A DNA stretch of 31,278 nucleotides. Source: a virus. Positions 7,552-28,065 of this stretch are shown piece after piece. The position numbers and the translations under genes are program-made. The stretch lies in the IMG/VR virus record IMGVR_UViG_3300045116_000587, positions 1 to 31,278 of that record, one strand, 5' to 3'. A model generated the notes under the pieces. It was not told the origin of the DNA, ran no database searches, and was given only the letters and a program-made list of their open reading frames with translations. How positions within the stretch are numbered: the stretch's first letter is position 1; every line of letters begins with the position of its first letter.

Positions 7552-8445
7552 CTACAGCAGGACGGCGCCGCGCCACTCCCACGAGTAGGTCAGCGAGCCG
7601 TCGGGCCAGAAGATGGGCTGGAGTCCGTTGCCGACTTGGTTGGACTGCGGCATGCAGTCGGCCACGCACACGCTCAGCCCTTCGAGGTCGAACACTGGGG
7701 CGCCGTGCGGGAGCGTCCGCAGGTAGTGACCGTTGGTCACGATGTGGTTGACGATCTTGCCGGCATGCTCCGGCTGGTGGGCGTCTATCCATCGCTCGAC
7801 TGCCTGGCTCGCAGACCTGCTGGGCTTGCCGAGCTTGGCCACGTCGCGGATCATCTGCTGGCGCCTGTGCGGCTTGCCGAAGACGTAGGGGCTGCTGTTC
7901 AGGGAGATCAGGTTGCAGACGCCGAGGCGGCGGTAGGCTTCGACTGGGTTGTCATCGTAAAGGTACTCGCTGACCATTTTGTCCATCCAAATGTCCTCGC
8001 ATATCACAACCCCGAACTTCGCGCCACACATGTCGACCACACACAGATCGCGACCTGGCTCGAAGTATCTGCCCTCATCGAAGACGTCGTAGAACGGCAG
8101 GAGATGCTTGCGATAGTTGGCGATCCGCATCCCGTTCCTGACGACCGCCGCGGAATTGAAAAGCGGCTTCCCACAACCGGTCGCATTCCTTTCGGCGTAT
8201 CCGACGAATATCGTGACCGACGGAAAGCACTTCGACTCATCCAGCAACTTCCCCAAGGCCGCAAGATTTGCGTCGACGAACCCCTCCGTCAACATGGCGT
8301 CTCGGCAGAGATAGCCGGGGATGGAAAGTTCCGGAGCGACAATCAAATCCGCTTCACCAGCGGAGCGGATGCCGTCAATGATTTGCCGACAGTTGCCGTC
8401 GAAATCCCCAGGGACTGGGTTGGTCTGGACAATGGCTATGCGCAT
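7552..8445 (-). CDS. Nitrilase-superfamily glutaminase, NAD-synthetase amidase-domain type
   Basis: The 297-residue protein has the Glu-Lys-Cys triad of carbon-nitrogen hydrolases: Glu39 in VAPELSIPGY, Lys113 in YRKHLLPFYDVFDEGRYF, and Cys149 in VVICEDIWMD. The YDVFDEGRYF and ICEDIW sequences are those of the glutaminase domain of glutamine-dependent NAD synthetase, which hydrolyses Gln to supply ammonia for deamido-NAD. The synthetase (ATP pyrophosphatase) domain is absent and does not follow in any frame, so this is a stand-alone amidase: it could supply ammonia, act on another amide, or work with a host NH3-dependent NadE. ATG with AGGAG; own promoter at 8469-8497; first gene of a six-gene minus operon. 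Confidence 0.85.
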   Translation of the reverse strand: MRIAIVQTNPVPGDFDGNCRQIIDGIRSAGEADLIVAPELSIPGYLCRDAMLTEGFVDANLAALGKLLDESKCFPSVTIFVGYAERNATGCGKPLFNSAAVVRNGMRIANYRKHLLPFYDVFDEGRYFEPGRDLCVVDMCGAKFGVVICEDIWMDKMVSEYLYDDNPVEAYRRLGVCNLISLNSSPYVFGKPHRRQQMIRDVAKLGKPSRSASQAVERWIDAHQPEHAGKIVNHIVTNGHYLRTLPHGAPVFDLEGLSVCVADCMPQSNQVGNGLQPIFWPDGSLTYSWEWRGAVLL

Positions 8446-11753: not shown

Positions 11754-12536
11754 ATGGCCAAGGAAATAGGTGGCATGCGCATGCTCAGGATAGCCGAAGG
11801 GGACTTCGCCGACGAATACACCTGCAAGAGGACTCCTGACGTCACGTTCGCCACCGGGGAGACGCAGTCGAACCACAAGGGCGAGTACATGGTCATGGCG
11901 ATCCTCCCGACCAGCGGGATGATGGACGTCGAGTACGTCGGCGGCGACCACGTCGGGGAGACCCAAAGGCTCGACATGGAGGACCAGGGCAGGGTCATCA
12001 GGCGGATGAGGAACGAGAGGCTCCGCGAGCAAGGCGTGCGCCCGACGCTCACGAGGGGGAGCGAGGAGATATTCTCGGTCGCCCTGCTCGCAGGGTGCGC
12101 CAACCTCCACGCCCAGGTCCCCAGCGACGAGGAGATACAGGTCGCCAGACGATACCAGTCCCTGGCGGGCGTCGACCCTGGCGGCGACCCCAACTTCGAG
12201 GTGTCGCCCGAGGGCACGAACAAATGGCACCACCAGTTGCGCTTCCGCCTCCCGGTGCGGATAGGCCCCGAGGTGGCCGAGACGCTGAGCTTCGGCGAGG
12301 GGATCAGGGCGATCCGCAGGCGCGACGGGGCCTACGAGGTCAACGACACGCGCCTGGCGTGGCACCTCGTGGCGATCGGCTTCCGCCTCGGCCACGCCCA
12401 CGACGTGGCGAGGATCAGGGACGCCATGTGCCAGACGCCGTCCGACCGCGAGAGGTTCGAGGAGGGCCTCGCCGCCGCAGGGCTGCCGCATGCGGCGTCG
12501 CTCGGCGCCGGCGGTTGGATGATCTCGATGTCCTGA
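11754..12536 (+). CDS. Protein of unknown function (260 aa)
   Basis: Not recognised. The product starts MAKEIGGMRMLRIAEGDFAD; early beta-rich part with YMVMAILPTSGMMDVEYVGG, a helical Arg/Glu-rich middle (RRMRNERLREQGVRPTLTRG), then strands around HHQLRFRLPVRIGPEVAETL and a C-terminal helical region ending WMISMS. No signal peptide or membrane segment. ATG 11754 has AGGGG about 9 nt upstream; an ATG at 11775 (MRMLRIAEG) with AAGGA is an alternative. It is the only gene between the divergent promoter at 11708-11736 and the tRNA operon. Confidence 0.65.
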   Translation: MAKEIGGMRMLRIAEGDFADEYTCKRTPDVTFATGETQSNHKGEYMVMAILPTSGMMDVEYVGGDHVGETQRLDMEDQGRVIRRMRNERLREQGVRPTLTRGSEEIFSVALLAGCANLHAQVPSDEEIQVARRYQSLAGVDPGGDPNFEVSPEGTNKWHHQLRFRLPVRIGPEVAETLSFGEGIRAIRRRDGAYEVNDTRLAWHLVAIGFRLGHAHDVARIRDAMCQTPSDRERFEEGLAAAGLPHAASLGAGGWMISMS

Positions 12537-12545
12537 ACAAAGCCG

Positions 12546-12574
12546 TTGACGCGGGACGGGGTTTCCGGCATACT
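12546..12574 (+). promoter_or_regulatory. Promoter of the tRNA operon
   Basis: TTGACG (12546-12551), 17-nt spacer, CATACT (12569-12574). The -35 and spacing match the other promoters; the -10 is a 4/6 match. The predicted RNA start near 12581 precedes the leader ORF by about 20 nt. Confidence 0.65.
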
Positions 12575-12600
12575 ATCCCATTGCGAGGACGGAAAAGAAC

Positions 12601-12666
12601 ATGATCGCTGTCATCCAGAATAACAACCAGCAAAACCGGACGCCCGACGGGCACCCGGCTGGTTGA
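12601..12666 (+). CDS. Asn/Gln-rich leader peptide (21 aa) of the tRNA operon
   Basis: ATG 12601 opens a 21-codon ORF ending in TGA 12664-12666. It encodes MIAVI, then seven consecutive codons for only Gln and Asn (QNNNQQN, codons 6-12, 12616-12636: CAG AAT AAC AAC CAG CAA AAC), then RTPDGHPAG. An AGGA sequence lies 11 nt upstream, a weak ribosome site. The downstream tRNA genes carry anticodons for Asn (GTT, twice) and Gln (CTG and TTG), exactly the amino acids in the run. The peptide itself is too short to have a fold; the codons are probably the functional part, acting as a ribosome-stalling sensor for charged tRNA-Asn and tRNA-Gln, as in amino-acid operon attenuators. This function is inferred from architecture. 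Confidence 0.7.
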   Translation: MIAVIQNNNQQNRTPDGHPAG

Positions 12667-12729
12667 GTTCTGCTGACCAGCGACTAGGGTGGGCCGTCGG
12701 GCAGGGATGCTCGGCGGCCGAAATGTTTT
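12642..12729 (+). terminator. Attenuator: alternative pairings and intrinsic terminator
   Basis: Segment A GCCCGACGG (12642-12650, inside the leader ORF right after the Asn/Gln codons) is perfectly complementary to segment B CCGTCGGGC (12694-12702). B is also part of the 5' arm of an 11-bp hairpin GGCCGTCGGGC (12692-12702) with GCTCGGCGGCC (12709-12719), loop AGGGAT, two G-U pairs, followed by GAAATGTTTT (terminator U-tract). A can also fold on itself (GCCC/GGGC), and a separate 6-bp hairpin (12658-12663 with 12676-12681) encloses the leader stop. A:B pairing would prevent the terminator. All pairings were found by eye; energies were not computed. Confidence 0.7.
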
Positions 12730-12739
12730 AAGGCTCGAT

Positions 12740-12816
12740 AGCCAGGTGGAGGGGAATGGTATCCCGCCTCCCTGTTGAGGAGGAGACTGCAGGTTCAAGT
12801 CCTGTCCTGGCTGCCA
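12740..12816 (+). tRNA. tRNA-Asn (anticodon GTT)
   Basis: Acceptor AGCCAGG (12740-12746) pairs with CCTGGCT (12806-12812); G73 and an encoded CCA follow. Anticodon stem CCTCC/GGAGG with loop CTGTTGA, anticodon GTT at 12774-12776; variable loop of 5 nt; T-arm GCAGG-TTCAAGT-CCTGT. Position 37 is G, unusual for tRNA-Asn, which normally has A37. First gene after the attenuator. Confidence 0.85.
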
Positions 12817-12829
12817 GAATGAGAAGGAT

Positions 12830-12928
12830 TGGCTTGTTGCCCTAACTGGTAAGGGAATCGCCTGTTAAGCGATCCGTGACGCTCGTAAATGGGCGTGCGT
12901 GCAGGTTCGAGTCCTGCCAAGCCAGCCA
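12830..12928 (+). tRNA. Class II-like tRNA with Asn anticodon GTT
   Basis: Acceptor TGGCTTG (12830-12836) pairs with CAAGCCA (12918-12924); G73 and CCA are encoded. D-stem CCC/GGG with a GG-containing loop; anticodon stem ATCGC/GCGAT, loop CTGTTAA, anticodon GTT at 12864-12866; T-arm GCAGG-TTCGAGT-CCTGC. Between anticodon and T stems lie 27 nt (12874-12900) that can form a 6-bp hairpin ACGCTC/GGGCGT with loop GTAAAT. A long, structured variable arm is normal for Leu, Ser and bacterial Tyr tRNAs, not for Asn. Either a class II scaffold with a recoded anticodon or a tRNA-Asn with an inserted hairpin. Confidence 0.8.
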
Positions 12929-12993
12929 TGTTCTTTGACATAGGAGGGTTTCAGGTTCGGGTCTCTCGAATAAACGGCGAAGGAGACCCAAAC

Positions 12994-13815
12994 ATGCAAC
13001 TTAGTAAGACGGATCAGTCGTTCGTGCTGGTGTGGGCCAAGAAGAGGATCGCAGCCAGCCTGCTGGGAAACCGATGCAAGCGGTGTGGCGAATCGGACAT
13101 CAGATGCTTGGAGTTCCACCATCCGAACGAGAAGTCGGCAGGCATCAACAGCATCAAGTGGTCGAGATGGAGCGTCATTGAGGCCGAGGTTAAAAAGTGC
13201 GAACTTCTCTGTTCCAACTGTCATGAAAGGTTGCATGCCAATCCAGGAAGGAACGCCCTTGCAAGGCAGAACCTGTTGCGTTTGGTTGGGGCAAAGGCGT
13301 GTTCGGAATGTGGACATACAGATATTGGGTGTTCAAGTTTGGAGTTCCACCATCATGGCGACAAAGCGTTCTCAATAAGCGCCCTTGCGACACGACAAAT
13401 CAAGGCAGACTGGGAGGATGTCCTAGCAGAACTCGACAAGTGCACCGTCATATGCTCGAACTGTCATGCCAAGAAACACGTGAACGCAGAACGCTTGACT
13501 AGGCTATGGGACGTGATCGAAACTCGGATGACGTCGTATCGCGAGAAGCCGAAGCCAGCTAACAAGGAAGAGGTGGTTAGGCTTTACAGGATGGGAGTCA
13601 AACAGATCGTTATTGCGAAAAGGCTGGGGTATTCCAAGGGAGCCATAAGCGGCATCGTCGGAAAACTGTGTCCACACAAGGTGCGTAGGCCGGCTGATCG
13701 GGGTTTGGTACAGAGTCTGCGGAATGACGGCTTGACTCAAACGGAAATAGCCAAACAACTCGGATATGACCCTAGTACGATCAGTAGAATACTGGGGGAA
13801 ACCAAGCATAAGTAG
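12994..13815 (+). CDS. Tandem-HNH homing-type endonuclease with two HTH motifs
   Basis: This 273-residue protein has two zinc/HNH modules: CKRCGESD ... LEFHHPNE ... CELLCSNCHERLH (about 24-85) and CSECGHTD ... LEFHHHGD ... CTVICSNCHAKKH (about 100-160). The C-terminal third carries two helix-turn-helix units, VKQIVIAKRLGYSKGAISGI and LTQTEIAKQLGYDPSTISRI. It is homologous in layout to the gene at 8501-9283, which has one HTH. ATG 12994 follows AAGGAG (12980-12985). It splits the Asn and Gln tRNA genes and has lower GC than its surroundings, so it is probably a selfish gene inserted in the tRNA operon; being on the same strand it does not interrupt transcription. Confidence 0.88.
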   Translation: MQLSKTDQSFVLVWAKKRIAASLLGNRCKRCGESDIRCLEFHHPNEKSAGINSIKWSRWSVIEAEVKKCELLCSNCHERLHANPGRNALARQNLLRLVGAKACSECGHTDIGCSSLEFHHHGDKAFSISALATRQIKADWEDVLAELDKCTVICSNCHAKKHVNAERLTRLWDVIETRMTSYREKPKPANKEEVVRLYRMGVKQIVIAKRLGYSKGAISGIVGKLCPHKVRRPADRGLVQSLRNDGLTQTEIAKQLGYDPSTISRILGETKHK

Positions 13816-13822
13816 TAGCGAT

Positions 13823-13896
13823 TGCCCGATGGTGTAACGGTAGCATGACTGACTCTGACTCAGTCGGTAGAGGTTCAAATCCTCTTCGGGCAGCCA
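13823..13896 (+). tRNA. tRNA-Gln (anticodon CTG)
   Basis: Acceptor TGCCCGA (13823-13829) with TCGGGCA (13886-13892), G73 and encoded CCA. Anticodon stem ACTGA/TCAGT, loop CTCTGAC, anticodon CTG at 13855-13857, reading CAG. T-arm AGAGG-TTCAAAT-CCTCT. It starts 8 nt behind the stop of the HNH gene. Confidence 0.93.
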
Positions 13897-13902
13897 TTCG
13901 AA

Positions 13903-13976
13903 TGCCCCGTGATGTAATGGCAGCATGAGGCCCTTTGAAGGCCTTCGCATCGGCTCGAACCCGGTCGGGGCAACCA
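13903..13976 (+). tRNA. tRNA-Gln (anticodon TTG)
   Basis: Acceptor TGCCCCG (13903-13909) with CGGGGCA (13966-13972), discriminator A73 and encoded CCA. Anticodon stem AGGCC/GGCCT, loop CTTTGAA, anticodon TTG at 13935-13937, reading CAA (and CAG by wobble). The neighbouring tRNA-Gln has G73, the usual identity base; A73 here is less common. Confidence 0.92.
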
Positions 13977-13977
13977 G

Positions 13978-14259
13978 ATGAAAGACCAACCTCGCATGTG
14001 GCTCCGCTTCGTCTACGACGACGGCAGCGCGACCGACCTGGAGGTCGGCAGGTTCACGACGGTCAAGGCGGGGACCTGCCGGAAGGTCAGGTTCCACGTC
14101 GACCTGCTGCCCGACGGAAAGCACCTCGTCCTCGCCGACGAGTCGGTGCTGCGGGTGGACGACAAGCGCGACATCACGTCCAAGCTCAGGCGCATCGAGG
14201 TCCTGCGGTCGAGCGAGGGGCAGTCCCAGGCAGGAACCGTTCCCACTCCACAGGAATGA
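13978..14259 (+). CDS. Small protein of unknown function (93 aa), abuts tRNA end
   Basis: Product starts MKDQPRMWLRFVYDDGSATD; it is beta-rich with KVRFHVDLLPDGKHLVLADE and VLRVDDKRDITSKL, then a disordered Ser/Gln/Pro tail. No family recognised. The ATG at 13978 is only one base after the CCA of tRNA-Gln, so there is no room for a ribosome site outside the tRNA: after 3' processing the mRNA would be leaderless. A later Met (codon 7) also lacks a ribosome site. Cotranscribed with the tRNA operon. Confidence 0.65.
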   Translation: MKDQPRMWLRFVYDDGSATDLEVGRFTTVKAGTCRKVRFHVDLLPDGKHLVLADESVLRVDDKRDITSKLRRIEVLRSSEGQSQAGTVPTPQE

Positions 14260-26410: not shown

Positions 26411-27829
26411 CTACTCTCCGATGTCTTTCTCCCACGGCTTCGCGCTCTCTCCCGCCATACGAACAATGAACGAGCGGAACGACCCGATGACATCAACGGA
26501 TTCGCTCTGGCATGCCATAACCTTCGTGACATCCTTGTAGGCCATCGAGCACTCATCAAGCGAACCGCCGATCAGGGTGACGCCCGCCACATCCAAGTCG
26601 CCCCTCATCTGCGCCATTGTGAACTGCTCCTTGGCTGCCTTGCGCGACATAAGGCGACCAGCCCCATGAGATGACGAGAAAAGGTATGCCTCGTTTCCCT
26701 TGCCCCTGCAAACATAGACGGGGGTTGTCATTGACCCAGGGATGATCCCATACACTCCGAGATGGGCAGGGGTAGCCCCCTTGCGATGAACGATGACATC
26801 CCTGCCATCAACAAGTCGCTCTCTCCATGCGAGGTTGTGCACGTTCTCGAAGAACCCGACCCTTTCCGCCTTGATGGCCCTCGTTATCCTGCCATGGATC
26901 ACATCATGACACGCCTTGGCAAAATCTGCCGCCAACATCATGGCGTCCCAGTATTCGCGCCCAGCATCCGAGTCCATACGAAGCCATGCGAGCCGCCTCG
27001 CATCCCCAGGAAGCGGGCATTCCTTCTCGGCCATCTTGGAGAAAACATCTGCGATCTTGTACCCAACCCCACGAGAGCCAGAATGCGACAAAACGGCGAG
27101 CCTTTCCCCGTCGAATTCTGGCAACGACACGAACCCGAATGATACGAAGTGGTTCCCACCGCCGCTAGTTCCGCACTGTCTGGTGGCCAAGTCTCGCAGG
27201 TGCAAGCCCCTGATGGATGGAAGGTCGAACCGAACATCATCAAGAACCCTTGAGTCAACCTTCACATCAATGTCTTGACCAGCCCCGAACACCGTGTTGG
27301 ACGAAAGCACGTTGACAAGGCGATCCTTCATTCCAGACGCATCCTTTGCAGGGATGTCGAAGATAGTCATTTGCATGCGGCACGATATGTCGACGCCGAC
27401 CGCCCAAGGTATGACCACATTGTCCGTCGCCAGCACCCCACCAATCGGAATTCCGTATCCCTGATGCGCGTCTGGCATCAAAGCGGCCCTGACGGAGATG
27501 GGGAGCTTGGCGGCGACGTGTATCTGGCCGATGGCCCCGGGCTCGATCATCGAGTCGCCGAAGATGGTCAGTGGACAATGGTTCTTGGACATGCGAATGG
27601 GCGTGGCCTTCGCGTCCTCCTCGGCCTTGGAGGCCATTGCGGCGGCGAGCGACGCCACCCATGGGACGCAGTCGCCCAAGAACGCCGAGGGGTCGGCGAC
27701 GATGTCCCTCACCTTGGCCTCGATCTGCGCCCTGCCGAAGTCCTTGGGGTTCGGCACGAGCAGGCGGAGCCCGGTCTTGATGGCTGGTCCCTTGACGCCC
27801 CAGTCGATGAGGTCCCTTCCCGTTATCAT
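26411..27829 (-). CDS. rtcB: RNA-splicing ligase RtcB
   Basis: RtcB joins RNA 2',3'-cyclic phosphate (or 3'-phosphate) and 5'-OH ends using GTP and Mn2+. The 472-residue protein has all landmarks: MPDAHQGYGIPIGGVLAT, GVDISCRM with the metal Cys, CGTSGGGNHF, LSHSGSRGVG, VHRKGATPA, SSSHGAGR with the guanylated His, and a C-terminal GSFRSFIVRMAGE. Length is that of the family. In phages it can repair tRNAs broken by host anticodon nucleases, which fits the tRNA genes and the RlaP-like protein here. The ATG overlaps the stop of the upstream Lar-like gene (ATGA) with GAGGAG as ribosome site. Confidence 0.97.
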   Translation of the reverse strand: MITGRDLIDWGVKGPAIKTGLRLLVPNPKDFGRAQIEAKVRDIVADPSAFLGDCVPWVASLAAAMASKAEEDAKATPIRMSKNHCPLTIFGDSMIEPGAIGQIHVAAKLPISVRAALMPDAHQGYGIPIGGVLATDNVVIPWAVGVDISCRMQMTIFDIPAKDASGMKDRLVNVLSSNTVFGAGQDIDVKVDSRVLDDVRFDLPSIRGLHLRDLATRQCGTSGGGNHFVSFGFVSLPEFDGERLAVLSHSGSRGVGYKIADVFSKMAEKECPLPGDARRLAWLRMDSDAGREYWDAMMLAADFAKACHDVIHGRITRAIKAERVGFFENVHNLAWRERLVDGRDVIVHRKGATPAHLGVYGIIPGSMTTPVYVCRGKGNEAYLFSSSHGAGRLMSRKAAKEQFTMAQMRGDLDVAGVTLIGGSLDECSMAYKDVTKVMACQSESVDVIGSFRSFIVRMAGESAKPWEKDIGE

Positions 27830-28065
27830 GTCTCCTCGACCCCCTTCTTCGGCGTCCTGTCGTTCCACCACGATGCCCCCTGGGCCTGGCTGTCGCAGAC
27901 CTGTTCCATCCGCGCCGGGCACACCACCCCCTTCAGGGGATAGTGGACGATCTGGAGGAACGGCGGCTTGTCGCTGGACAGGAAATACGTCTCCCCCGTC
28001 CTGCAGAACGGACACTCGTCGAGCGCGACCTCCTGCTTGTCCGCCGGTATCCTCTTCCAGCTCAT
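27826..28065 (-). CDS. Small Lar-like zinc-ribbon protein (79 aa)
   Basis: CPFC (Cys18, Cys21) at the start and a second pair (Cys49, Cys57) around GVVCPARMEQVC, followed by ASWWNDR. The C-P-F-C beginning and the terminal W-W-N-x-R resemble Lar/restriction-alleviation proteins; another Lar-like gene is at 6871-7101. The ATG at 28063-28065 lies 6 nt behind TACAAT of a TTGACT-N17-TACAAT promoter, with no ribosome site: leaderless. It heads the operon with rtcB. Similar zinc ribbons have many functions, so the assignment is moderate. Confidence 0.6.
   Translation of the reverse strand: MSWKRIPADKQEVALDECPFCRTGETYFLSSDKPPFLQIVHYPLKGVVCPARMEQVCDSQAQGASWWNDRTPKKGVEET

Follow-up and report, generated by a model that had tools for sequence, protein, structure and literature searches.

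Ribosome-mediated attenuators are known from the leaders of the trp, his, leu, thr and phe amino-acid operons, and also from that of pheST. T-box riboswitches respond to tRNA charging by a choice between a terminator and an antiterminator. Why phages carry tRNA genes is an open question; codon bias, a need to make good the tRNAs that host defence destroys, and host shutdown are candidate answers. Here, we analysed 31,278 nucleotides of viral DNA (IMG/VR record IMGVR_UViG_3300045116_000587; the whole stretch is hereafter the window), where a short open reading frame (ORF) packed with Asn (N) and Gln (Q) codons, and then a terminator-like hairpin, precede an operon of tRNA-Asn and tRNA-Gln genes. 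This layout follows the principle of classical ribosome-mediated attenuation, as set out in the abstract of PMC1183508. We consider it likely that the locus is a ribosome-mediated transcription attenuator of a phage tRNA operon, and that the same circuit has been re-tuned in several other phage groups.

Such an arrangement had been proposed from the letters of the window, in what we call the sequence-only reading. Its elements are, in order:

12546..12574, plus strand: sigma-70-like promoter TTGACG-17 nt-CATACT (consensus scan, 9/12 matches)
12601..12666, plus strand: predicted leader peptide ORF, MIAVIQNNNQQNRTPDGHPAG and a stop, 21 codons (direct sequence reading; probability of the N/Q run; same layout in a second phage, L134)
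12616..12636, plus strand: regulatory codons CAG AAT AAC AAC CAG CAA AAC (Gln/Asn), codons 6-12 (direct reading)
12624..12665, plus strand: protector hairpin predicted for the ribosome-free state, pairing 12624-12631 (inside the codon run) with 12658-12665 (stop codon) (minimum-free-energy fold)
12642..12650, plus strand: segment A, GCCCGACGG, 5' half of the putative antiterminator (perfect 9-nt complement of B)
12692..12719, plus strand: terminator-like hairpin, followed by GAAATGTTTT (weak U-tract)
12694..12702, plus strand: segment B, CCGTCGGGC, common to the antiterminator (with A) and the 5' arm of the terminator
12740..12816, plus strand: tRNA-Asn (GTT) (ARAGORN; Rfam tRNA, 42.8 bits)
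12830..12928, plus strand: tRNA-Asn (GTT), 99 nt, with a long variable arm (ARAGORN, structure drawing)
12994..13815, plus strand: HNH endonuclease gene with a C-terminal helix-turn-helix (HTH), within the tRNA operon (PHROGs HNH, 6e-29; Pfam HTH)
13823..13896, plus strand: tRNA-Gln (CTG) (ARAGORN, Rfam)
13903..13976, plus strand: tRNA-Gln (TTG) (ARAGORN, Rfam)

The 21-codon ORF with its seven consecutive Gln/Asn codons is there as the sequence-only reading had described it, and A is indeed the exact 9-nt reverse complement of B. The anticodons it had given to the downstream tRNAs (GTT, GTT, CTG and TTG) are those called by ARAGORN, but the Gln pair lies 0.9 kb further, past the HNH gene that separates it from the Asn tRNAs, and outside the range assigned to the operon. 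The window sits with 100% identity inside a longer IMG/VR contig, 3300045115_000211 (113,194 nt, 64% GC), for which ARAGORN calls four tRNAs only, Asn, Asn, Gln and Gln, all behind the leader. The promoter-like sequence was the one found between 12300 and 14500, where 0.8 are expected by chance; its position would suit the leader, which is no proof of its use.

The codon run is very improbable given the composition of this genome. Asn and Gln make up 4.9% of the codons in the 82 gene calls of the parent contig, and against this background the chance of seven N/Q codons in a row within 20 codons is about 1e-8. A search of viral contigs for codons spelling QNNNQQN gives 58 stretches, some of which end before 2.5 kb downstream, and among these only the window has tRNAs in the available sequence up to 2.5 kb downstream. 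The RNA of the leader folds with a z of -4.45, none of 200 shuffles being equally stable, and the A:B match of the window has p = 0.005 relative to dinucleotide shuffles.

The terminator-like hairpin has 11 pairs (12 counting an inner A-T) and -23.5 kcal/mol. In the minimum-free-energy fold of the full-length leader free of ribosomes, the protector hairpin forms and the terminator stands. We then computed the probability of A:B pairing in the growing transcript, masking the footprint of a ribosome under three assumed footprints. With the RNA ending just past B, this probability is 0.89-1.00 for a ribosome on codons 6-10 with all three footprints; it is 0.94-1.00 for a ribosome on codons 2-5 and 0 for one at codon 14 or beyond. 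For a ribosome on codons 6-11, the antiterminator has a predicted free-energy gain of -18 to -20 kcal/mol; the value is about -10 kcal/mol at codon 12, and between -7 and -12 kcal/mol after codon 11. Folding thus supports the attenuation logic put forward for the locus, in that A:B is favoured as B emerges when the ribosome is on or before the run, and is gone once the ribosome has moved past it.

A second phage carries the same arrangement with a different leader. Contig 3300035701_008648 (L134) was retrieved by a search for a tRNA-Asn pattern that was blind to leaders. Its locus has tRNAs for Gln, Asn, Asn and Gln, behind an N/Q-rich leader, MSFVNQQNQQNSLSPGGDWAGWVL, that differs from that of the window, and a canonical terminator, GCCCCTGGGC-GGAA-GCCCTGGGGC-TTTTTTGTTTT, just 5' of the first tRNA. 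The motif of this leader, NQQNQQN, is found in at least 120 stretches of viral contigs; in 80 of these plus L134, with 99 occurrences, only that of L134 is within 1.5 kb upstream of tRNAs. As in the window, A lies shortly 3' of the codon run, and a hairpin similar to the protector hairpin is present. All nine A:B pairs are retained in L134, with two changed on both sides and one changed on one side, and B also pairs in the terminator, there with one mismatch. These compensatory changes are suggestive; they come from two sequences only, with no statistical test of covariation. The sequence-only reading had named, as evidence that would count against it, a homologous locus in which the tRNAs are kept but the leader, its codon run or pairing of A with B is missing; L134, the one diverged locus found with the same tRNA set, keeps every element. 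The two loci also share a 99-nt tRNA-Asn(GTT) (window 12830-12928, L134 6750-6848), of equal length and aligned without gaps. An exact pattern for it is found, among viral contigs, in the window and L134 only. A long variable arm is unusual for tRNA-Asn. Little else is common to the parent contig and L134: four proteins match at 29-36% identity, and these look, by eye, like DNA methyltransferases and an HNH protein.

To see how far such leaders extend, we surveyed tRNA clusters in the genomes LR756511, LR745206, LR756500, LR756501, LR756502, LR756504 and LR756508, in Agrobacterium phage Atu_ph07, Pseudomonas phage Viktualia, Brevundimonas phage Kikimora, Tunturiibacter phage Tunturi_5, Caulobacter phage phiCbK, T4 and Bacillus phage G, and at viral-contig loci. 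LR745206, LR756500 and LR756511 entered through protein matches to the window and the other LR records as neighbouring accessions; named phages were chosen as rich in tRNAs, four of them after turning up as RtcB matches and Atu_ph07 after a protein match. Sources of the viral-contig loci include the QNNNQQN and tRNA-Asn pattern searches. The regions cover most, not all, of the tRNA matches of these records. LR756501 and LR756503 are both 735,411 nt long and may be duplicates. Among 291 tRNA clusters, 76 have an intrinsic terminator at most 400 nt upstream, and 64 of these have a short ORF before it. A T-rich tail was part of the selection rule and hence provides no independent evidence of termination.

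Leaders were then taken by a blind rule, ignoring tRNA identity: the longest ORF starting with ATG, of 8-45 codons and ending 8-50 nt before the terminator. This gave 49 leaders from 18 sources in 290 clusters, after removal of one cluster whose upstream region was artefactually long. We left out clusters with no assigned amino acid and ORFs starting with GTG or TTG or breaking the 8-50 nt rule, which removed the PPKKLLLASS leader of phiCbK and others from the statistic. Overlapping copies (L002-L011, L018-L020, L078-L107) were also left out, and L200-L319 lie outside the survey. A residue was counted as cognate when it matched the amino acid of a tRNA at most 1.5 kb downstream.

The leaders are enriched in the amino acids of the tRNAs behind them. 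In frame, the cognate fraction is 0.328, a value reached in none of 20,000 permutations of the tRNA sets, which give 0.178±0.014. The same leaders show no cognate excess in frame +1, frame +2 or antisense (7609, 16291 and 11944 of 20,000 permutations, respectively). The in-frame excess remains at 0/20,000 without the window, and also separately in the LR genomes (31 leaders) and in the remainder (18 leaders). With one leader per source (18), which limits relatedness, mean z is 5.0 and median p 0.0025, with p<0.05 in 500/500 draws. The expectation of the sequence-only reading that leaders rich in matching codons precede tRNAs in related phages holds across many phages. Examples, with tRNAs in one-letter code, are:

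LR756502, tRNAs QQQQ: leader MTTSFQQQQQQQINRTD
LR756502, tRNAs RSR: leader MKTTIKNTSSRSRSSKSGEVRLYS
LR756504, tRNAs EAIVGE: leader MKTVNTNIAIVEIAVIGGAEEGVMGVYCLNSKTS
LR756504, tRNAs KKK: leader MRTILIIKKKKRDAIPIKIE
LR756501, tRNAs LLLLL: leader MNNILHINLLNSLCLLGIKLIG
LR756501, tRNAs WHHFKS: leader MLQTSKHSKHFSSSSKWFTTF...
Tunturi_5, tRNAs LCLLYLSSS: leader MKTLCLSSYCLSSSLSLSDGW...
Kikimora, tRNAs YVIVQN: leader MMTYRQNVQNIRVVRFYRAG...
phiCbK (outside the blind set; NC_019405, 49540-49677), tRNAs PPKKLLLASS: leader MFALSHNSLSTKAASPASLSLAPLATATKPSTK...
Bacillus phage G (NC_023719, 58381-58515), tRNAs CDFYET: leader MMKCSWFEFDTDFTDVFYCEYTFYSLYTF..., including ..CSWFEFDTDFTDVFYCEYTFY..

In what amounts to a natural experiment, leader content follows cluster content. 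LR745206 has two clusters, each with its own leader (EEEYEY behind ..SYESYYEE.. and IGMG behind ..IAVIGNGAGAI..). LR756502 has a single EYEYEIGG cluster, behind a single leader with Glu, Tyr, Ile and Gly codons (..ETIGYTGYEGAYSE..). Between the E/Y leader of LR745206 (L116) and the first listed tRNA, directly behind the terminator, there is also a tRNA-like stretch with the loop TGTAAAA, uncalled by ARAGORN and perhaps, by eye, a degenerate tRNA-Tyr.

The cognate codons also lie where folding predicts that they would matter. We defined a control zone as the codons at which a ribosome would leave the antiterminator strong, and used those leaders (40 of 49) whose antiterminator is predicted to reach 6 kcal/mol or more. 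Cognate-codon density is 0.497 in this zone (permuted 0.177±0.025) and 0.238 outside it (permuted 0.164±0.018), giving an odds ratio of 3.16 for the zone versus elsewhere, against 1.12±0.24 permuted (0/5000). Leaders whose cognate fraction reaches 0.25 are called matched here (33 leaders); in these, the antiterminator averages -9.4 kcal/mol with the ribosome on the run and -5.3 kcal/mol at the stop codon. A ribosome on the run leaves it more stable, with a margin above 2 kcal/mol, in 22 of the 33, and the reverse is found in none. The parts, their conservation in L134, the cognate enrichment and the overlap of cognate codons with the predicted control zone are all features of the sequences themselves.

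In the mechanism that we infer, which extends to promoter use, translation, stalling, termination, read-through and the trigger in vivo, RNA polymerase would start at about 12585 and a ribosome would begin the N/Q leader peptide. Under a shortage of charged tRNA-Asn or tRNA-Gln, the ribosome would stall on codons 6-11 and leave A free to pair with the emerging B, so that the terminator is blocked and the Asn and Gln tRNAs are transcribed. When charged tRNAs are plentiful, the ribosome would pass over A, the terminator would form and transcription would end. Since the tRNAs being sensed are those that the operon encodes, its output would relieve the stall and close a self-limiting loop of tRNA supply. 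The trigger might be loss of host tRNAs, host shutdown or a shortage of amino acids; the latter would trip the same switch and is indistinguishable from tRNA cleavage by sequence. An RtcB-like tRNA/RNA ligase is encoded in the window (26411-27832, minus strand; PHROGs 1e-86); it would fit a life with tRNA cleavage and is no proof of that trigger. More generally, we hold it to be likely that many large phages run tRNA homeostats, in which each leader spells the amino acids of its own cluster, the phage senses in real time which charged tRNAs fail in the host and expresses those clusters only, and leader and tRNA contents co-evolve by split and fusion.

Several observations weigh against this interpretation. 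Once the whole terminator is out, equilibrium folding of the window favours the terminator in almost every ribosome state. The switch must therefore be kinetic, by kinetic trapping, in line with the common view of known attenuators. A crude measure, the probability that the terminator arm is paired at all with upstream sequence in the partial transcript, gives 0.78 for the stalled, 0.74 for the stop and 0.61 for the untranslated state of the window, a small difference, presumably because weaker alternative pairings replace A:B. The hairpin of the window is strong and has the 11 pairs claimed for it, but the U-tract (GAAATGTTTT) is weak and starts several bases past the stem. In L134, the antiterminator is at -14.9 kcal/mol with the ribosome at the stop codon and -15.1 kcal/mol with it on the run, and is weak (-5 kcal/mol) only with the ribosome on codons 14-22. 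Hence, for termination there, the ribosome would have to be in the later half of the leader when the terminator comes out, and several other leaders behave like L134 at the stop codon. A G-U pair keeps exact A:B complementarity from being significant in L134 (p 0.81).

The same holds for parts of the survey. Its thresholds were set after first results had been seen; the frame controls, which use the same leaders, are unaffected by this choice. Among unmatched leaders with a defined run, 6/10 also differ in favour and 2/10 against, and the difference between stall and stop is thus not specific as a measure on its own. By the crude arm-pairing measure, 11 of the 33 matched leaders are in favour and 1 against, and exact A:B complementarity has p<=0.05 in 13/33 matched and 3/16 unmatched leaders. 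Synonymous codons agree with the phage anticodons in 72 of 117 informative codons, with 64.2 expected (z 1.64, not significant). The data therefore support sensing at the level of the amino acid or aminoacyl-tRNA, and do not prove sensing of isoacceptors. Most clusters have no detected leader (64/291 have a candidate). The match is also poor in 16/49 blind leaders, with cognate fractions under 0.25 and, in ten cases, under 0.10. In KVP40, crAss001, RaK2 and phage 65, there is one blind leader in 25 clusters, that of KVP40, an ambiguous case since its cognate set covers nine amino acids.

T4 and Viktualia have no blind leader, and a small bacterial control (25 loci, 30 clusters) gave two, neither convincing. 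Rfam, searched at ten leader-bearing loci with the gathering threshold, finds tRNAs, one GOLLD RNA and one tRNA-Sec, and nothing at the leaders; at the window leader, its three matches are at chance level (E 1.3-5.9), far below the family cut-offs.

Among other explanations, the one that survives best, and which we still regard as unlikely, is an attenuator that senses general amino-acid (nitrogen) starvation and mainly serves the protein genes downstream, the tRNAs being passengers. Matching is at the level of amino acids rather than clearly of codons, the side chains of Asn and Gln are both amides, and protein genes do continue downstream on the strand of the tRNA operon. Yet, leaders track tRNA content for many amino acids (Lys, Leu, Ser, His/Phe/Trp, Glu/Tyr/Ile/Gly), including clusters for a single one (QQQQ, KKK, LLLLL). 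Moreover, neither of the two proteins directly downstream in the window has a Pfam or PHROGs match; for the other phages, no search for biosynthetic functions among downstream genes was made.

It is very unlikely that chance or composition placed a short N/Q-rich intergenic ORF before Asn and Gln tRNAs. Short ORFs are abundant, GC-rich sequence readily gives strong hairpins, and our first list of matches, in which leaders were picked by score, was biased. Against this stand the probability of the run, the match of blind leaders in frame only, the second Asn/Gln operon with a different leader and the control-zone test. For the family as a whole, chance is refuted by the permutation, control-zone and one-per-source tests, barring an unseen bias that would link tRNA identity to codons in frame and to no others.

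Slightly less probable still is that the leader acts as a nascent-peptide arrest sequence or a functional micropeptide instead of being sensed codon by codon. N/Q-rich peptides could have an activity of their own and arrest peptides regulate through similar RNA switches, but the peptides vary between phages and do so in step with tRNA content. Least probable of all is a T-box-like sensing of uncharged tRNA by RNA without translation: T-boxes do employ terminator/antiterminator switches and the sequence AGGGTGG (12686-12692) is similar to a stretch of the T-box core, but there is no Rfam match to a T-box up to E=1 (12400-14100) or E=10 (12540-12740), the L134 leader lacks the motif, and the in-frame peptide signal would have no role.

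Some side observations deserve mention. Just 5' of the HNH start codon, GAGACCC could pair with GGGTCTC 17 nt upstream. A nitrilase-type protein of the window (7552-8445, minus strand) resembles the glutaminase part of NAD synthetase, and its best phage match is in huge phage LR756511 (53% over residues 1-199). No close relatives of the window were found: the 278-aa protein upstream matches only its own contig among viral contigs and nothing among phages, and six other loci bearing RNR have no tRNAs. In LR756502 (L163 14685-15091), the GOLLD RNA (275 bits) ends 9 nt before a tRNA gene. Finally, dense tRNA arrays occur in a Plantactinospora (actinobacterial) genome, G005 (contigs C111, 46-52 kb, and C147, 3-7 kb), possibly as a mobile element.

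If the leaders work as proposed, expression of phage tRNAs would be conditional, and each leader would be a readable record of the shortage that its phage expects. The reason why phages carry tRNAs would then become directly testable, phage by phage. It would also provide a simple sequence rule to find such switches and predict their trigger, including in phages with laboratory hosts (phiCbK, phage G). A term search of the huge-phage paper of Al-Shayeb 2020 (PMC7162821) returned neither 'attenuat' nor 'leader peptide', and one of the phage-tRNA paper of van den Berg 2023 (PMC10264068) neither 'attenuat' nor 'leader'. Among the matches listed in full-text literature, which includes few subscription journals and no bioRxiv preprints, none describes phage tRNA genes under attenuation by a leader peptide. 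The type of mechanism is known; the tRNA-gene target, the mixed codon leaders and the supply loop are, to the extent that this could be established, new.

Like the attenuators of amino-acid operons, the locus has a putative promoter, a short ORF whose regulatory codons form a leader, an antiterminator and a terminator that exclude each other, and a predicted protector hairpin, and the position of the ribosome would be the signal in both. It differs from them in that the phage leader would control tRNA genes instead of biosynthesis or synthetase genes, that phage leaders mix codons for several amino acids, mirroring the tRNA array, and that the product of the operon would directly relieve the signal. 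Unlike in T-box riboswitches, to whose model the locus has no match, sensing here would need translation. With the phage tRNA arrays and phage RtcB that act as counter-defence against anticodon nucleases, the window has in common a supply of tRNAs by the phage and an RtcB-like ligase; here, however, expression of the tRNAs is predicted to be conditional on their shortage.

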